Below, piece by piece: positions 2,572 to 17,363 of a stretch of DNA of 20,848 nucleotides. The notes under the pieces were generated by a model that searched no databases, was not told the DNA's origin, and saw only the letters and a program-made list of their open reading frames with translations. A program made the position numbers and the translations under genes. Positions within the stretch are counted from its first letter, which is position 1. Every line of letters starts with the position of its first letter. This DNA comes from a virus, in IMG/VR virus record IMGVR_UViG_3300032291_001749, positions 1 through 20,848 of that record. One strand, 5' to 3'.

Positions 2572-2924
2572 ATTTTGTATTTAAAGACGCAGAGGCTGCT
2601 GTAGGGGAGCCCACATCATCTGTTGTACTTTACAGCCACTGGGGCCAGGACGGATGGGAAGTTGACATTGCCAAAGCTTTAGAACATGCCAAGCCCCGCT
2701 GGAATGATTCATCATACGGGACCAGAATGATTATTAGTTATCTTATTCAAGATAGCATTCTAGACGAAACGGGTTTTGGAATCTATTCAATCCGTGGAAC
2801 TAACTATGACCTGGGGGAGCAGACAGTGGTTATTGATTTTGTTAATAAGACTGTTACTGATAACGTTCCCGTCAAATGGGATAAGTTTATCCAAGCATAT
2901 TTACCTGAGCACGCAGTAGTATAA
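2556..2924 (+). CDS. Hypothetical protein, 122 aa
   Basis: A clear AGGAG lies 8 nt before the ATG. The protein is a mixed alpha/beta soluble protein with motifs LYSHWGQDGW (residues 25-34) and, further on, GFGIYSIRGTNYDLGE. I do not recognise a named family. It is the last gene of the operon, directly before a strong terminator. Confidence 0.8.
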   Translation: MGARINFVFKDAEAAVGEPTSSVVLYSHWGQDGWEVDIAKALEHAKPRWNDSSYGTRMIISYLIQDSILDETGFGIYSIRGTNYDLGEQTVVIDFVNKTVTDNVPVKWDKFIQAYLPEHAVV

Positions 2925-2936
2925 TCATACTGCAAC

Positions 2937-2980
2937 GGGGGAGTGCGATTTGTGGTGGGTTGCGCTCCCCCCTTATTTTT
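2937..2980 (+). terminator. Rho-independent terminator
   Basis: A 12-bp stem (GGGGGAGTGCGA with TTGCGCTCCCCC, two G-T pairs) closes an 11-nt loop and is followed by TTATTTTT. It ends the left operon. The 3' arm also carries the likely -35 of the next promoter. Confidence 0.85.
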
Positions 2981-2988
2981 GATACAAT
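2960..2988 (+). promoter_or_regulatory. Promoter nested in the terminator
   Basis: TTGCGC (2960-2965, inside the terminator 3' arm) and TACAAT (2983-2988) are spaced 17 nt and precede the gene at 3005. The -35 matches only the TTG of consensus, so this is moderate. Confidence 0.45.
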
Positions 2989-3004
2989 TAGGTAAGGGAG
3001 AACC

Positions 3005-3214
3005 ATGAGAAAAAAACTAATCACAAAAGAGGAAAAGGTAGCAATCCAACTATCCAATGTCTTAGCAGACCTACGCCTTGACCTTGACATGGTAGGCAAG
3101 TATTTGGTACAATTATCACCTAATGTAATTTATAATCGTTTAATCGTAATCGCTGACTCAGCCCAAGCAGAAAAGGAACAACAGTATGACCACTACCAAT
3201 ACAGACTATTCTAA
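3005..3214 (+). CDS. Hypothetical basic helical protein, 69 aa
   Basis: GGGAGAACC precedes the ATG. The product starts MRKKLITKEEKVAIQLSN and is basic and helical throughout; it might contact nucleic acid but shows no defined motif. It overlaps the following gene by 29 nt. Confidence 0.7.
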   Translation: MRKKLITKEEKVAIQLSNVLADLRLDLDMVGKYLVQLSPNVIYNRLIVIADSAQAEKEQQYDHYQYRLF

Positions 3215-3452
3215 AAAGATAGAAATCTTAAATGACATTTGGCTTAACCATTCCGATAACGAATTTTTTGAGTATTTTATTGAGACTAATGACTTAGGTT
3301 TACCAATGGCTCACTTTATTTTTCAGGGTATAGTAGAGTCCACCCCATTAGCAAAAGAACTAATAGATCAATCATTTGCTGACCTATTAGAATTGTTTGA
3401 GTATGAGGACGAAGGCTTTGAGGCACTAACTGATTTTTGGGGTTTTGCATAA
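3186..3452 (+). CDS. Acidic protein, paralogue of the gene at 16804-17106, 88 aa
   Basis: AAGGA lies upstream of the ATG. The core FIETNDLGLPMAHFI (about residues 31-45) matches FIEYNDIGLPIAFLI in the minus-strand gene at 16804, and the flanking pattern (IL..W, VE.T.LAK, then an acidic helix ending in F) also aligns, so the two are paralogues. Both start about 30 nt inside the gene before them. Acidic, no Cys, no membrane segment. Function unknown. Confidence 0.8.
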   Translation: MTTTNTDYSKKIEILNDIWLNHSDNEFFEYFIETNDLGLPMAHFIFQGIVESTPLAKELIDQSFADLLELFEYEDEGFEALTDFWGFA

Positions 3453-3485
3453 AATCTTTCATAAATAAAAGCTGACTTGACAAAA

Positions 3486-3512
3486 GCCCCTTCGGGGCCC
3501 CGAGAGATTTTT
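3486..3512 (+). terminator. Possible terminator after the 3186 gene
   Basis: GCCCC-TTC-GGGGC forms a 5-bp hairpin, but the T run (3508-3512) starts 9 nt after the stem. The word GGGCCCCGAG here also occurs after tRNA-Asp (about 89-98). Confidence 0.4.
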
Positions 3513-3530
3513 ATCAAACCATAAAACCTT

Positions 3531-3632
3531 ATTACGATCAAACCTTTTCTTTCCCCAAATTTGACATTACGAGCAACCAAAAAATTTTCCAGATTCATGG
3601 ATATTACGACAGCTGTAGAATTTTCCAGATTC
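3531..3632 (+). repeat. ATTACGA-headed repeats of about 36 bp
   Basis: ATTACGA occurs at 3531, 3566 and 3603, spaced 35 and 37 nt. Copies two and three are each followed 16-17 nt later by an identical 14-mer AATTTTCCAGATTC (3583-3596 and 3619-3632). Further ATTACGA copies lie at 155, 3894 and 4198, usually preceded by GAC and often followed by CAA. These look like protein-binding sites; no protein is identified. Confidence 0.7.
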
Positions 3633-3661
3633 TAGCATATCAAACCTTCTTTGTCAAACCA

Positions 3662-3670
3662 TGTTATAAT
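3662..3670 (+). promoter_or_regulatory. Extended -10 of a leaderless gene
   Basis: TGTTATAAT ends 6 nt before ATG 3677, placing the expected transcript start on the start codon. No good -35 is seen, which fits the TGn extension. Confidence 0.55.
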
Positions 3671-3676
3671 AATCTT

Positions 3677-3856
3677 ATGGGAAGAAACTATTTTTCAAAG
3701 CATGGTGGACCTTACTTTAAGAACGATGGGTTCTCTCAACACTCTCATTCCCATGATGATCCACATGATATCAAACCAGACTATGTATCTATCTTTATAG
3801 CTGTAGGGTTTGTTACTATGACAGTTTCTTTACTTATAGTAACCATACTTCTTTAG
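3677..3856 (+). CDS. Small membrane-anchored protein, 59 aa
   Basis: Too short for a usual gene caller but supported by a -10 box exactly 6 nt upstream. The N-terminal part is hydrophilic and His-rich (FSQHSHSHDDPH, residues 19-30, a possible metal-binding patch); residues 36-59 form one membrane helix (VSIFIAVGFVTMTVSLLIV) at the very C-terminus, as in tail-anchored proteins. The gene sits among repeats and contains one TCAAACC word (3771). Function unknown. Confidence 0.6.
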   Translation: MGRNYFSKHGGPYFKNDGFSQHSHSHDDPHDIKPDYVSIFIAVGFVTMTVSLLIVTILL

Positions 3857-3903
3857 ATCCCCCGCCATAACGCATCAAATAATCCTGTTAGACATTACGA
3901 TCA

Positions 3904-3933
3904 ACGCTTTAGCGTCCCCGTTTTTGACGGGGG
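3904..3933. other. Two adjacent stem-loops
   Basis: ACGCT-TT-AGCGT (3904-3915) is followed by CCCCGT-TTTTG-ACGGGG (3916-3932). Neither strand has a T run after the stem, so I do not call a terminator. It lies between ATTACGA (3894) and the AT-rich centre of the putative origin. Confidence 0.55.
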
Positions 3934-4228
3934 ATATATATAAACCATACACCAAATACCCCCTATAGAATAACAAACCTTTTCTCCTGGTTTTGGATAT
4001 GTTATTAAATATTATCAAACCTTTCTATTATATTATTGGACATTATGGGCAATTTTGTATATGTTTTTATATAGCTTTTAAACTATAAAGGTTTGACAAA
4101 TAGAGGTTTGTATGATATGATCCATGCCAGATGTGAGGTTTGAAGAAAGGTTTGTAAGGTTTGAAGGTTTGGTATGTGAGGTTTGAAAGCCGTGGACATT
4201 ACGACGCCATCTATAAAAGTGCTCAATT

Positions 4229-4258
4229 CTCCACTATCCTCCACTTCCCTCCACCCAA
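4229..4258 (+). repeat. 10-bp tandem repeat, CTCCAC-headed, three copies
   Basis: CTCCAC recurs at 4229, 4239 and 4249, with the first two units matching over CTCCACTNNC. The 10-nt period keeps copies on one face of the helix. It lies between the GGTTTGA array and the DnaA boxes. Confidence 0.65.
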
Positions 4259-4290
4259 ACCATATATTAAAAATATCAGTAAGATCTAAT

Positions 4291-4365
4291 TGTGGATAAC
4301 CTGTGGATAACTATGTGTAAAACACTAATTTACGCTATCCAAATTATCGTTTCTACTGTGGATAA
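4291..4365 (-). promoter_or_regulatory. Three perfect DnaA boxes
   Basis: TGTGGATAA, the complement of the DnaA box TTATCCACA, occurs at 4291-4299, 4302-4310 and 4357-4365, all in one orientation. Offsets of 11 and 55 nt are near-integral helical turns. The first two lie in different reading frames, so the repetition is of DNA sites rather than of peptide. DnaA binding is inferred from the exact consensus. Confidence 0.65.
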
Positions 4366-4513
4366 CTTCTATATTGGTTTGCATATAGATGTGTATTTCA
4401 AAAACGGTACAGCTCTTTGGCTATGGGGCATATCCTCAAAGCCAGGTGTTATTACCTGGTGTATTTACTATAGGGGTAATGGGGTCTTTCTTGACATACC
4501 GTTCAAAATTTAA
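4292..4513 (+). CDS. Possible hypothetical protein, 73 aa, overlapping the DnaA boxes
   Basis: The frame opens with GTG 4292 inside the first DnaA box; a weak -10 (TAAGAT, 4280-4285) ends 6 nt before it, matching the leaderless spacing used elsewhere. A later ATG lies at 4312. The C-terminal half (DVYFKNGTALWLWGISS) looks protein-like and Trp/Gly-rich. An inverted repeat (CCAGGT/ACCTGG, 4442-4459) lies within it. It may be a chance frame across an origin. Confidence 0.4.
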   Translation: MDNLWITMCKTLIYAIQIIVSTVDNFYIGLHIDVYFKNGTALWLWGISSKPGVITWCIYYRGNGVFLDIPFKI

Positions 4514-4526
4514 ACAATGCTATAAT
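4491..4526 (+). promoter_or_regulatory. Promoter for the 4548 gene
   Basis: TGCTATAAT (4518-4526) is a perfect extended -10. A perfect TTGACA (4491-4496) lies 24 nt upstream, too far for normal use with it; an alternative -10 AACAAT at 4513 would sit 16 nt from it. I think the extended -10 drives the gene. Confidence 0.6.
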
Positions 4527-4547
4527 TGATGAAAAGAAGGAGCAACA

Positions 4548-4898
4548 ATGGCATTTCCAGTAATATATGATTTTGATTGTTATGAGGGCGATACTCATAC
4601 ATTTAATGTTGTTGTAAAAGGTTTAAATGACACCAACTTCCTTGCACTTGCCAGAGCTGGAACAACTTATACATTTTCAATTGCTAACGAAAGAAGTGCA
4701 AGTGCCTCTTTTAAAACTACTGGATATATCATAGCTACTACAGACTTAATTTCATGCACTATAAGTGGATCTCTTACTCCTGGGCAATACGTATATTCTG
4801 TTAGACAAAATCAACCAGCCTTTGGTGGCGGATTAGCCCTAGTCTACACCTTTGTTACAGGAACAATAACTGTTAAGAGTAAGGTTCCATCAATTTGA
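4548..4898 (+). CDS. Probable phage particle protein, BppU-like beta-sandwich, 116 aa
   Basis: AAGGAG precedes the ATG by 7 nt. The protein is beta-rich, with the order YDFDCYEGDTHTFNVVV (residues 7-23), a middle SISCT-like strand, then LTPGQYVYSVRQNQ and VYTFVTGTITV. This matches the general pattern of the small sandwich domain at the N-terminus of baseplate upper proteins (a strand with 'GDT', then 'PG.YvY.v', then 'G.v.v'). It is followed by a coupled short gene. Tail, fibre or capsid-decoration roles are possible; the location away from other structural genes is odd. Confidence 0.5.
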   Translation: MAFPVIYDFDCYEGDTHTFNVVVKGLNDTNFLALARAGTTYTFSIANERSASASFKTTGYIIATTDLISCTISGSLTPGQYVYSVRQNQPAFGGGLALVYTFVTGTITVKSKVPSI

Positions 4899-5005
4899 AA
4901 ACAATAGAAGTTAACCAAGCAATACAAACCATTACAGTTTATATAATTGCAGATACAGTATCTGCAAAACAAAATGTTCCAGTTATTACTGCTTATCAGT
5001 ATTAA
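4895..5005 (+). CDS. Short coupled protein, 36 aa
   Basis: A TTG start overlaps the previous stop as TTGA. The product starts MKTIEVNQAIQTITVYIIAD and ends PVITAYQY; it is beta-prone and Thr/Val-rich like its neighbour. Either a small companion of the particle protein or a remnant of a once longer one. No family recognised. Confidence 0.45.
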   Translation: MKTIEVNQAIQTITVYIIADTVSAKQNVPVITAYQY

Positions 5006-5017
5006 TATATACTTTAT

Positions 5018-5046
5018 TTGACTTCCCCGCAAAAATAGGGTATGCT
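5018..5046 (+). promoter_or_regulatory. Leaderless promoter
   Basis: TTGACT (5018-5023), 17 nt, TATGCT (5041-5046), then 6 nt to ATG 5053. Confidence 0.7.
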
Positions 5047-5052
5047 TGTTTT

Positions 5053-5157
5053 ATGAAGAAAAACGAATGCCAAAAATGTGAGATGAGTCACAAAGATCCC
5101 ATCTTCTGGGATACTCATCAAACCATGTCAGATGGAAGGATCTGGTGTACTAAATGA
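5053..5157 (+). CDS. Zinc-finger mini-protein, 34 aa
   Basis: Supported by a 17-nt-spaced promoter ending 6 nt before the ATG and by an ATGA overlap with the next gene. The product starts MKKNECQKCEMSHKD: a CxxC pair (6, 9) plus His 13, His 22 and Cys 32 could form a single zinc site. It resembles the other leaderless Cys-pair mini-proteins at 6107 and 8401. Function unknown. Confidence 0.6.
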   Translation: MKKNECQKCEMSHKDPIFWDTHQTMSDGRIWCTK

Positions 5158-7552: not shown

Positions 7553-7759
7553 ATGAGATATACGTATAACATTGATATTGCTAAAATGGAAGAAGTTTAT
7601 TTTAGCCATACCCAGCAAAATTTCTTTGCAAATGATGAAGAGCGTAAAAAGTTTAATGCTGACCTTATAGTTGAAGCAGAAAACGAAGAAGAATCTGAAA
7701 AGATGAGAATGGGAATGACTGATATTACAATGTGGTCATTAGTCCATACTGAGCAATAG
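7553..7759 (+). CDS. Hypothetical acidic protein, 68 aa
   Basis: AAAGGA lies 6-7 nt before the ATG. Product starts MRYTYNIDIAKMEEVYF, with a Glu-rich middle (ENEEESEKM). No Cys or membrane segment. It follows the tRNA-like gene on the same probable transcript and is 7 nt before the first sulfotransferase-like gene. Function unknown. Confidence 0.7.
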   Translation: MRYTYNIDIAKMEEVYFSHTQQNFFANDEERKKFNADLIVEAENEEESEKMRMGMTDITMWSLVHTEQ

Positions 7760-11644: not shown

Positions 11645-12769
11645 CTATAAGCGATTGATCTGCTTGTTTATAAACTCCAAGAATTTACCAGTAATTAGTG
11701 CAAACCCTAGCTCAGGCTTAGCATTAACACATTCTGGACTGACTATATACTTTGCCCACTCCTTTACAGATGCCTTGTTCTTGCCTGCTGTATCTGCTAA
11801 AAGGTAGGATACAATCCCTAGAGGGTATGCTCCAGCCTCTTTGGTAGAGTAGTCGTAGGTAAGTATATTGTTTGAGTCTATTGAGGCTTCTCCAAGGAAT
11901 GCTGATACATTTGCGCTATTAGGCTCAACAAAGTTACCAGAAGCATTTCCTATGTTTGCCACCTTAAGGTTAAAGAACTTGGCAAAAGAAACCTCTGCAT
12001 ATGTAATAGAATACTTAGTCTTTGATGCAAGTGTTGCTACACCCTGTGACTGATTTGCTCCAGAGATTCTTCCTATGTTATTTACATCATTAATGTTATT
12101 TGGAAATGATGTTGAAAATGAATCAGAGACGGGCTTAGTCCATGTATTAGGAGAAAAGGCCTTCATATATCTAACAAAATTATTAGTTGTGCCAGAGTTA
12201 TCTAGTCTAAAAATAACTTTAATTTTTTGGTTTGGCATAGTGTATACAATGCTTTTGGTTGACGTTCTTAATACTACTGGGCTGCCAGCCTTATCTTTAA
12301 TTAGATTACCAGTTGCATCTTTCTTATATACTACCTCTTTAATTTTTATATTGTTGTCAGCCTTAATAGCAGGATCATTCCACATTGTTATTTCTCCCGC
12401 AAAAATCTTAGCGACTGTAGTTGATGATAGATAAACCTGTCTGTTACCTGGCAGGTTGTGCATAACGGCAATAGGTGCTGCAACTACTGGAATATGAATA
12501 ATTGATGGCTTCTTAGTTGATGCAGTATGAGCTGAGTCTGAAAACCAGAAATCACCAATGCCTTTGTCAGATGAGGTCTTGCCAGCACCAGAACCGTTGG
12601 CTGAGTATGTTACTAAATTGCCTGTGTTCCTAGCATAAGATGATCTGCATTCGTCAATGAGGTTGGCTGGGAAAGATGCACCATTGCCAACAATATTTTC
12701 TGCTGCAAAGGCTGGGGTAGAAATAGATAGAGCAGCAACTACTGCCATTACGATAAGTTTAATTCTCAT
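11645..12769 (-). CDS. pstS: Phosphate-binding protein PstS, 374 aa
   Basis: A Sec signal peptide (MRIKLIVMAVVAALSISTPAFA, cleaved after A22, AFA-A) is followed by VGNGASFP (27-34), the phosphate-loop start of PstS. Further family marks are SANGSGAGK, an ITMWNDPAI segment, RLDNSGTTNNFVRY (the second phosphate loop) and GVATLASKT. Length matches secreted PstS. It binds phosphate outside the cytoplasm for the Pst ABC transporter; no pstCAB genes are nearby, so it must work with host PstCAB. It lacks the lipobox Cys. Its start has a leaderless promoter and PHO-box-like repeats upstream. A host-derived metabolic gene, as in cyanophages. Confidence 0.9.
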   Translation of the reverse strand: MRIKLIVMAVVAALSISTPAFAAENIVGNGASFPANLIDECRSSYARNTGNLVTYSANGSGAGKTSSDKGIGDFWFSDSAHTASTKKPSIIHIPVVAAPIAVMHNLPGNRQVYLSSTTVAKIFAGEITMWNDPAIKADNNIKIKEVVYKKDATGNLIKDKAGSPVVLRTSTKSIVYTMPNQKIKVIFRLDNSGTTNNFVRYMKAFSPNTWTKPVSDSFSTSFPNNINDVNNIGRISGANQSQGVATLASKTKYSITYAEVSFAKFFNLKVANIGNASGNFVEPNSANVSAFLGEASIDSNNILTYDYSTKEAGAYPLGIVSYLLADTAGKNKASVKEWAKYIVSPECVNAKPELGFALITGKFLEFINKQINRL

Positions 12770-16804: not shown

Positions 16805-17106
16805 TATTTTTTATCTTTTCTATCTACAAAGTTAAAGATATCTTCCAATGATTCCCAGCCAAGATCTTCAACAACTTCTAATGCTGCTAAAAATATGTCC
16901 CAGGTTTCATATACATATTGTTTAGCTAACTGTGTTGGCTCTACAAGCTCATTATCAATTAAAAATGCAATAGGCAAACCAATATCGTTATACTCAATAA
17001 AATCTTTAAAGTATTTATCATTCTTATAGTCCATCCATAGTTCACCAAGAATTGAACAGATTGATTCAAAACTACTTACTTGGTGTCCATTGTTAGAGTT
17101 TTCCAT
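16804..17106 (-). CDS. Acidic protein, paralogue of the gene at 3186-3452, 100 aa
   Basis: FIEYNDIGLPIAFLI (about 36-50) aligns with FIETNDLGLPMAHFI in the plus-strand gene at 3186; LVEPTQLAK aligns with IVESTPLAK. It carries a longer N-terminus and a basic end (DRKDKK). Starts 31 nt inside the WhiB gene, with GGTGAAG upstream. Function unknown. Confidence 0.75.
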   Translation of the reverse strand: MENSNNGHQVSSFESICSILGELWMDYKNDKYFKDFIEYNDIGLPIAFLIDNELVEPTQLAKQYVYETWDIFLAALEVVEDLGWESLEDIFNFVDRKDKK

Positions 17107-17363
17107 ACTTCACCCCACTGCTCCTTTGTTCTATGCTTACTAAACTCTCTAGATATTTCGCCATTTTCTAAGTATATACCGCCCCAAATTCCCCACTCTT
17201 TTCCTGATACTCCATTAGCAAAGCATACTTTTTGAACTGGACAGGCCTGACAAAGATTATCTATTATTGGTCTGATTAGTTCATCATCTTCATATTTATC
17301 AAAAAATAAATTTGTATCCATATCAAAGCAGGCGCCATTATCTTTCCATAGGTGCTGCTCCAT
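17076..17363 (-). CDS. WhiB-like iron-sulfur transcription regulator, 95 aa
   Basis: The four cluster-binding cysteines are in place: C12, then C38-x2-C41-x5-C47 (CQACPVQKVC), followed by the G(V/I)WGG turn GIWGG (58-62) and a basic C-terminal stretch. WhiB proteins bind a [4Fe-4S] cluster and contact the principal sigma factor of actinobacteria; phages carry them to redirect host transcription. This is the strongest marker of an actinobacterial host here. Confidence 0.92.
   Translation of the reverse strand: MEQHLWKDNGACFDMDTNLFFDKYEDDELIRPIIDNLCQACPVQKVCFANGVSGKEWGIWGGIYLENGEISREFSKHRTKEQWGEVWKTLTMDTK

Follow-up and report, generated by a model that had tools for sequence, protein, structure and literature searches.

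Phage lambda carries divergent promoters with several operators, and one of the transcripts runs toward the replication region. At the iteron origins of plasmids and some phages, repeats, an AT-rich stretch and DnaA boxes occur together. In L5-type mycobacteriophages, the orientation of the stoperator sites correlates with transcription, and reversal of a site abolishes repression; the sites are 13-mers that number more than 20, are distributed genome-wide and in some cases lie in promoters (PMC9283540). In the L5 system the sites occupy promoters and short intergenic spaces and are bound by a monomeric repressor with two domains. Site motifs are similar, and not identical, among L5-related cluster A mycobacteriophage genomes (PMC6550527). 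BldC of Streptomyces binds cooperatively to head-to-tail directional repeats of varying number, with 9 bp per subunit (PMC5859096).

We analyzed a 20,848-base virus record (the window) that contains a dense array of the hexamer CAAACC/GGTTTG (the word). Judged by its sequence, the locus is a genuine conserved control region in an uncultured bacterial virus family and looks like a control hub. It resembles the L5 system in having many copies of one asymmetric site oriented with transcription (here 94 sense versus 7 antisense words in promoter spacers over 55 relatives, with the putative promoter P3 as an exception). Unlike the L5 13-mers, which are spread genome-wide, the words here are 6–8 bp, lie in one 0.7-kb locus and are unbiased elsewhere, and the phage lineage is different from the cluster A mycobacteriophages. 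The comparison with L5 stoperators made in the original prediction, a note written from the sequence alone, holds for orientation and does not extend to genome-wide distribution. The likeness to lambda lies in the divergent promoters, the several putative operators and the one transcript toward the replication region; the lambda operators are symmetric and few, whereas those proposed here are asymmetric and about fifteen in number, and the putative origin is recognized by DnaA boxes only. A spacing of 8–9 bp, one of the two main spacings here, is close to the BldC repeat, but the BldC consensus, AATTXXXX(C), is unlike the word, and the MerR/HTH_17-like candidate of this phage lies below the Pfam cut-offs. 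Repeats, an AT-rich stretch and DnaA boxes are present as at iteron origins; in contrast to those origins, the repeats track promoters, and either of the two, words or boxes, can be found without the other. A literature search, with most papers judged by title and the opening of the abstract, found no such array described at that level.

With putative operators that have a direction, predicted strong promoters that face apart and DnaA boxes of the host type all in one place, the locus is an entry point to gene control in uncultured phages. The natural word series (CAAACC, mixed, CAAACA and none) allows the co-change of a phage regulator and its sites to be compared, and the locus raises the question of whether early transcription is coupled to replication by the reader of the word.

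The Record and Its Viral Context

Over its full length, the window was 99.98% identical to a segment of a viral contig of 108,863 bp (G1), in which the array lies at 81.3–82.0 kb. A near-identical 80,207-bp contig (G002; locus L008) ends at approximately 81,196 of G1, about 150 bp short of the array, possibly as an assembly break at the repeats. G1 encodes its own helicase, primase, SSB and polymerase, and it shares with Streptomyces phage Karimac, which is placed in Stanwilliamsviridae by its own record, the order helicase, primase, SSB, polymerase, RecA-like recombinase, Cas4-type exonuclease and terminase. The terminase is 54% identical to those of Streptomyces phages such as Yaboi. The dense word array was absent from Karimac and from Actinomycetia phage DSL-LC01, and the ATTACGA cluster described below was likewise absent from Karimac.

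Karimac (L403) has two exact DnaA boxes, at 119,227 and 119,251, in opposite orientations within a stretch without annotated genes.

The window contains a WhiB-family gene (17076–17363) and, at 11645–12769, a gene for a periplasmic-binding-type protein (Pfam PBP_like_2), the product of which is PstS-like by our reading and whose three nearest relatives among genome contigs (54–57%) come from actinobacterial metagenome bins. These two genes suggest that the host is probably actinobacterial; it presumably lives in fresh water. A blastn search of positions 3001–5100 against phage records matched 18 enterobacterial records, which we take to be T5-like, with a best E value of 1e-3, and all the matches listed were restricted to the DnaA-box stretch. 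A tblastn search with the protein of 4548–4898 gave no match in phages, and Rfam models recognized only tRNAs over the window. The putative flanking genes (3005–3214, 3186–3452 and 4548–4898) all point right; the mechanically generated ORF list also has overlapping ORFs on the opposite strand near the array.

The Word Array

We found 15 words in 673 bp (3514–4186), in the order +++++-++-------. The original prediction had described 14 copies of a 7-bp word, seven in one orientation and then seven in the other with a single switch. The dense set and the opposed blocks are as described, with an additional GGTTTG at 3807 that brings the number to 15 and interrupts the left half; the invariant part of the word is 6 bp, and the seventh base is T in 11 of the 15 copies. 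The spacing of 8–9 nt claimed for the right array was found at 4149/4158/4166, and the AT-rich stretch claimed for the switch was found at the boundary of the blocks (Table 1). The array had also been said to match no gene; it encloses a small ORF, which has no Pfam match. Two additional words lie to the right, at 4256 and 4376. The spacings between neighboring words peaked at 8–9 and 14–16 bp, with smaller groups at 20–22 and 31–33 bp. The flanking columns of the sites, which were selected on CAAAC[CA], carried at most about 0.5 bit.

The density was far above chance, as had been claimed. Local dinucleotide shuffles of 3514–4186 (n = 2000) contained 0.39±0.63 words, with a maximum of 4, and the whole window contained 37 words versus 9.2±3.2 expected. 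When the 96 words of G1 were placed at random in 5000 trials, no 673-bp stretch held more than 8. A count over the whole contig gave the array as the sole dense cluster of the 108.9 kb, the next densest 700-bp stretch holding 5 words. Outside the array, 70 words lay in ORFs of at least 90 aa (36 sense and 34 antisense) and 10 lay elsewhere, so that neither the density nor an orientation bias recurs in the rest of G1. The order of orientations gave p = 0.012 (at most one misfit, either direction); the pattern is only moderately unlikely in the window sequence alone, and its strength comes from the relatives.

Table 1. Features of the array locus, in window coordinates.
Feature	Position	Strand	Remarks
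Hairpin and T-rich tail, to the left of the array	3491..3504	+	Folding energy not better than shuffles; upstream operon may end here
Left array: CAAACC at 3515, 3539, 3641, 3655	3515..3660	+	Reads GGTTTG leftward
ATTACGA, five copies: 3531, 3566, 3603, 3894, 4198	3531..4204	+	
P_left, putative promoter: TTGACA-17-TAGAAT	3629..3657	-	11/12 matches; word over the -35, another in the spacer
P3, putative promoter: extended -10 TGTTATAAT	3662..3670	+	6 nt 5' of ATG; overlaps P_left words, which are antisense to P3
Small ORF, 59 codons, between the arrays	3677..3856	+	Hydrophobic C-terminus; no Pfam match
Inner words: CAAACC 3772, 3974, 4016 (+); GGTTTG 3807 (-)	3772..4021	mixed	
AT-rich core between the opposed blocks	4022..4089		81% A+T
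Right array: GGTTTG at 4090, 4105, 4137, 4149, 4158, 4166, 4180	4090..4185	-	
P_right, putative promoter: TTGACA-17-TATGAT	4093..4121	+	11/12 matches; word 4090 over the -35, word 4105 in the spacer
CTCCACT, CTCCACT, CTCCACC (4229, 4239, 4249)	4229..4255	+	10-bp period
ATATCAGTAAGAT block 5' of the DnaA boxes	4273..4285	+	Conserved in the alignment rows shown
Three exact DnaA boxes TTATCCACA: 4291-4299, 4302-4310, 4357-4365	4291..4365	-	
Terminator-like hairpin 3' of the DnaA boxes	4441..4460	+	z -1.33 versus shuffles

Conservation in Related Loci

The 122-aa gene at 2556–2924 was used as the query, and 80 of 177 related viral loci were taken. Four loci with less than 1300 bp downstream were removed, and the remaining 76 were reduced to 55 by shared 15-mers. 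A dense array, defined as at least 7 words (CAAAC[CA]) in 750 bp, was found at the same place in 52 of the 55 non-redundant relatives, which keep it beside the flanking gene. The best single split of word orientation was + then − in 51 of the 52 arrays, and the mean number of misfits was 2.35 versus 4.13 for random orientations. The three array-free relatives (L056, L065 and L074) all retained ATTACGA and DnaA boxes. L047 has CAAACA in place of CAAACC throughout its array as far as the DnaA boxes, and several other relatives are mixed.

We aligned 14 closer relatives, picked from the 80 loci, with the window and measured their identity to it. The values were 0.955 for the DnaA boxes, 0.884 for ATTACGA, 0.842 for the promoter hexamers, 0.759 for CTCCACY, 0.683 for the words and 0.555 elsewhere. 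The words were kept in 6.59 of the 14 rows versus 2.81 for other 6-mers (p = 9e-5, a value computed over neighboring 6-mers and rows that are not independent). The best-kept words were 3655 and 3974 (13 rows each), 3641 and 4016 (12 rows each) and, in the right array, 4149 and 4090. For the right array, the number of rows with the word at the aligned position was 9 (4090), 7 (4105), 0 (4137), 10 (4149), 3 (4158), 5 (4166) and 8 (4180). The poorly kept words were 3515 and 3539 (5 rows each), 3772 and 3807 (3 rows each), 4376 (none) and, in the right array, 4137 and 4158. It looks as if outer sites are gained and lost while the core stays fixed. The DnaA boxes at 4291, 4302 and 4357 were kept in 13, 13 and 12 of the 14 relatives, respectively.

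In a second search, viral contigs were scanned for GGTTTGACAAA-N3-6-GGTTTG, which gave at least 119 stretches. Among the matches listed, 68 of 80 loci had at least 8 words and two same-strand ATTACGA copies within 900 bp, 48 of those 68 had a DnaA box, and 12 of the 80 did not have this combination of words and ATTACGA. The second search is partly independent of the first, at least 16 of its 80 contigs being already among the relatives found with the 122-aa gene.

Predicted Promoters and Orientation of the Words

Promoter-like sites in positions 2900–5000 of the window were not above shuffles in number (10 versus 8.6±3.0). Three sites in this stretch had 11 of 12 matches, namely P_left, P_right and a site at 3084 inside a gene. 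In the relatives, we accepted a promoter when neither hexamer had more than one mismatch, the spacer was 16–18 and a sense word lay within it. Such sense-word promoters were found rightward in 44 of the 55 relatives, leftward in 33 and in both directions in 32, with 11 and 22 relatives, respectively, having none at this threshold (including the three word-free ones). In 6-mer-block shuffles (n = 1100 regions) the frequencies were 1.1% rightward and 0.5% leftward; this comparison measures chance co-location, not mechanism, in relatives that are not independent.

As an antisense control, both orientations of the spacer word were counted at all promoter-like sites. The 133 rightward sites included 58 with a sense word and 5 with an antisense word, and the 59 leftward sites included 36 and 2, respectively. 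The 80 bp that follow the sense-word promoters contained 174 sense and 5 antisense words. Ten long records, of which three are word-free and two of those three alike (G024 and G025), had 626 promoter-like sites; 14 sense-word promoters were located at the array locus and 4 elsewhere. The word thus spells GGTTTG along the predicted transcription on both sides, and the blocks are opposed because the promoters diverge. P3 breaks this orientation rule. Its pattern was found in 23 of the 55 relatives, and in 21 of those 23 a word lay upstream in antisense, mostly a word of P_left. The predicted leftward transcript would run against the genes upstream, with no product evident, and the leader RNA of P_right did not fold better than shuffles.

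The opposed blocks probably constitute one directional operator array on divergent promoters, a reading to which we give somewhat better than even credence. A single sequence-specific protein, probably phage-encoded, would read the asymmetric GGTTTG (core GTTTG) and would recognize it in one orientation relative to RNA polymerase. P_left and P_right would be outward-facing promoters of the sigma70 type, each with a word over the −35 and another in the spacer, and further words would sit just past the expected transcription starts. Binding would then block or gate both directions simultaneously, and P3, the putative promoter of the small central ORF, would be covered too through the P_left words that it shares in the opposite sense. 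The P_right transcript would head to the DnaA boxes, so that the regulator may also decide origin firing. The words, the promoter-like sites, their conservation, the orientation rule and the DnaA boxes are seen in the sequence itself, and promoter activity, a single regulator, its repressing action and the origin function are inferred. The suggestion of many operators for one regulator, the better supported of the two offered in the original prediction, gains from the location of the words in promoters, from their variable offsets and from their nearly uniform sense orientation, and P3 counts against it. The order of the blocks across relatives, the retention of the words, the CAAACA spelling in L047 and the second search also favor the operator array; the poorly kept words, the relatives that lack sense-word promoters, the unexceptional number of promoter-like sites and the leftward transcript weigh against it.

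The location of the words inside promoters, together with the WhiB-family gene of the window, would also suit words that are parts of phage-specific promoters used by an altered sigma factor, or sites of a WhiB-like activator, instead of repressor operators. The word was fused to the −35 as [GT]GTTTGACA in 59 of the 94 sense-word promoters, and GGTTTGACA includes the −35 hexamer TTGACA. The spacer word begins anywhere from 0 to 10 bp past the −35, and these observations fit occlusion better than a fixed promoter element. In addition, both promoters already match the sigma70 consensus at 11 of 12 positions, the words carry on past the expected starts, and WhiB is also encoded in the three word-free long records. 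We consider such promoter parts or activator sites decidedly unlikely, and we infer repression rather than activation as the more plausible action.

Directional repeats clustered at one locus per genome are also compatible with a partition (centromere-like) or packaging site for a segregation or packaging protein. Overlap with promoters and an orientation linked to transcription would be unexpected for such a site, and no partition protein was recognized among the scanned proteins, which are a portion of the ORFs. This function is highly improbable.

Extending the directional operator array to the whole group of phages, we propose, tentatively and with less than even confidence, a new phage control system in many uncultured, probably actinobacterial phages. 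By reading a very short directional word, one putative regulator would shut off or free transcription in the two divergent directions, and it would license a DnaA-dependent origin through the rightward transcript. The array, ATTACGA and the boxes would be exchangeable modules, and the copies of the word would drift together (CAAACC to CAAACA), with the possible result that the regulator of one phage no longer acts on its relatives.

DnaA Boxes and the Question of an Origin

The three exact DnaA boxes of the window lie within 75 bp. A close pair of exact boxes was found in 45 of the 55 relatives, 42 with the array and 3 without it. Seven arrays (L034, L043, L046, L069, L070, L077 and L081) had no exact box in the fetched locus and 0 to 2 one-mismatch boxes within 2 kb. 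Three more arrays without a close exact pair were set aside: L048, whose box pair lies just past the 2-kb cut, L080, in which 153 bp separate two boxes, and L094, with an incomplete locus. The long records G006 and G030, which have arrays without boxes, contain exact box pairs roughly 10 kb away. The seven arrays without exact boxes and the three relatives with boxes and no words indicate that words and DnaA boxes are separable modules. The control region thus appears usually, but not always, to contain a putative DnaA-dependent origin.

The original prediction had also offered the words as iterons of a phage replication origin. According to this explanation, a phage initiator would bind the words, melt the AT-rich core and load the helicase together with DnaA, the array itself being the origin. 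The dense repeats with their AT-rich core, the nearby DnaA boxes, which are the best conserved element of the alignment, the joint occurrence of the array and a close box pair in most relatives, and the replication proteins encoded by G1 would all accord with it. Against it stand the separability just described and the distant box pairs of G006 and G030, the spacings of 8–9 and 14–16 bp, which are not regularly helical, and the fact that the words follow promoters and promoter direction. In addition, the GC skew did not turn at the array; its cumulative minimum was at 63,751 of G1 and the skew seems to follow gene direction. PHROGs scans of five neighboring proteins and Pfam scans of four detected no Rep-like protein. 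The neighboring DnaA boxes thus speak for the iteron claim, and the words, independent of the boxes and tied to promoters, speak against it. We regard an iteron array as unlikely, and the words are more likely to be operators than iterons, although each of the two suggestions in the original prediction is right in part.

In L074, an array-free relative, six exact DnaA boxes were located at 7561–7688, the first five being 21 bp apart.

Candidate Regulators

Two proteins of G1 were considered as putative readers of the word. A 180-aa protein (G1:13975–14517), encoded first before the DnaB-like helicase, showed HTH_17 and MerR_1 similarity below the Pfam cut-offs and was present in 23 of the 36 records searched. 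Its AlphaFold model had a mean pLDDT of 64.7 and gave no PDB fold match at E 0.001, and the one match from a profile search against PDB sequences had an E value of 0.14. This protein is a candidate only. The second protein, a 52-aa HTH-like ORF (G1:3366–3524) with HTH_40 and MerR similarity below the Pfam cut-off, is an unproven candidate.

The residues of the 180-aa protein did not separate the word classes: its HTH segment is nearly identical in G023, a CAAACC genome, and G014, a CAAACA genome.

Gene presence was also compared with word class. Several genes were present in all six other array records and absent from the three word-free ones; the comparison singled out no gene, because the three word-free records are distant in most proteins.

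Other Conserved Elements

ATTACGA constitutes a second site family that is better conserved than the words. Over the 55 relatives, 254 of its 262 copies were on the + strand and 8 on the − strand, it was retained even in relatives without the word array, and a TCC/CCC block followed it at a fixed distance downstream. CTCCACT was found within 2 kb in 49 of the 55 relatives, and two copies were exactly 10 bp apart in 33 of the 55. The ATG of the small ORF of the window lies 6 nt past the extended −10 of P3, and at the same position the relatives have ORFs with a similar start that diverge afterwards.
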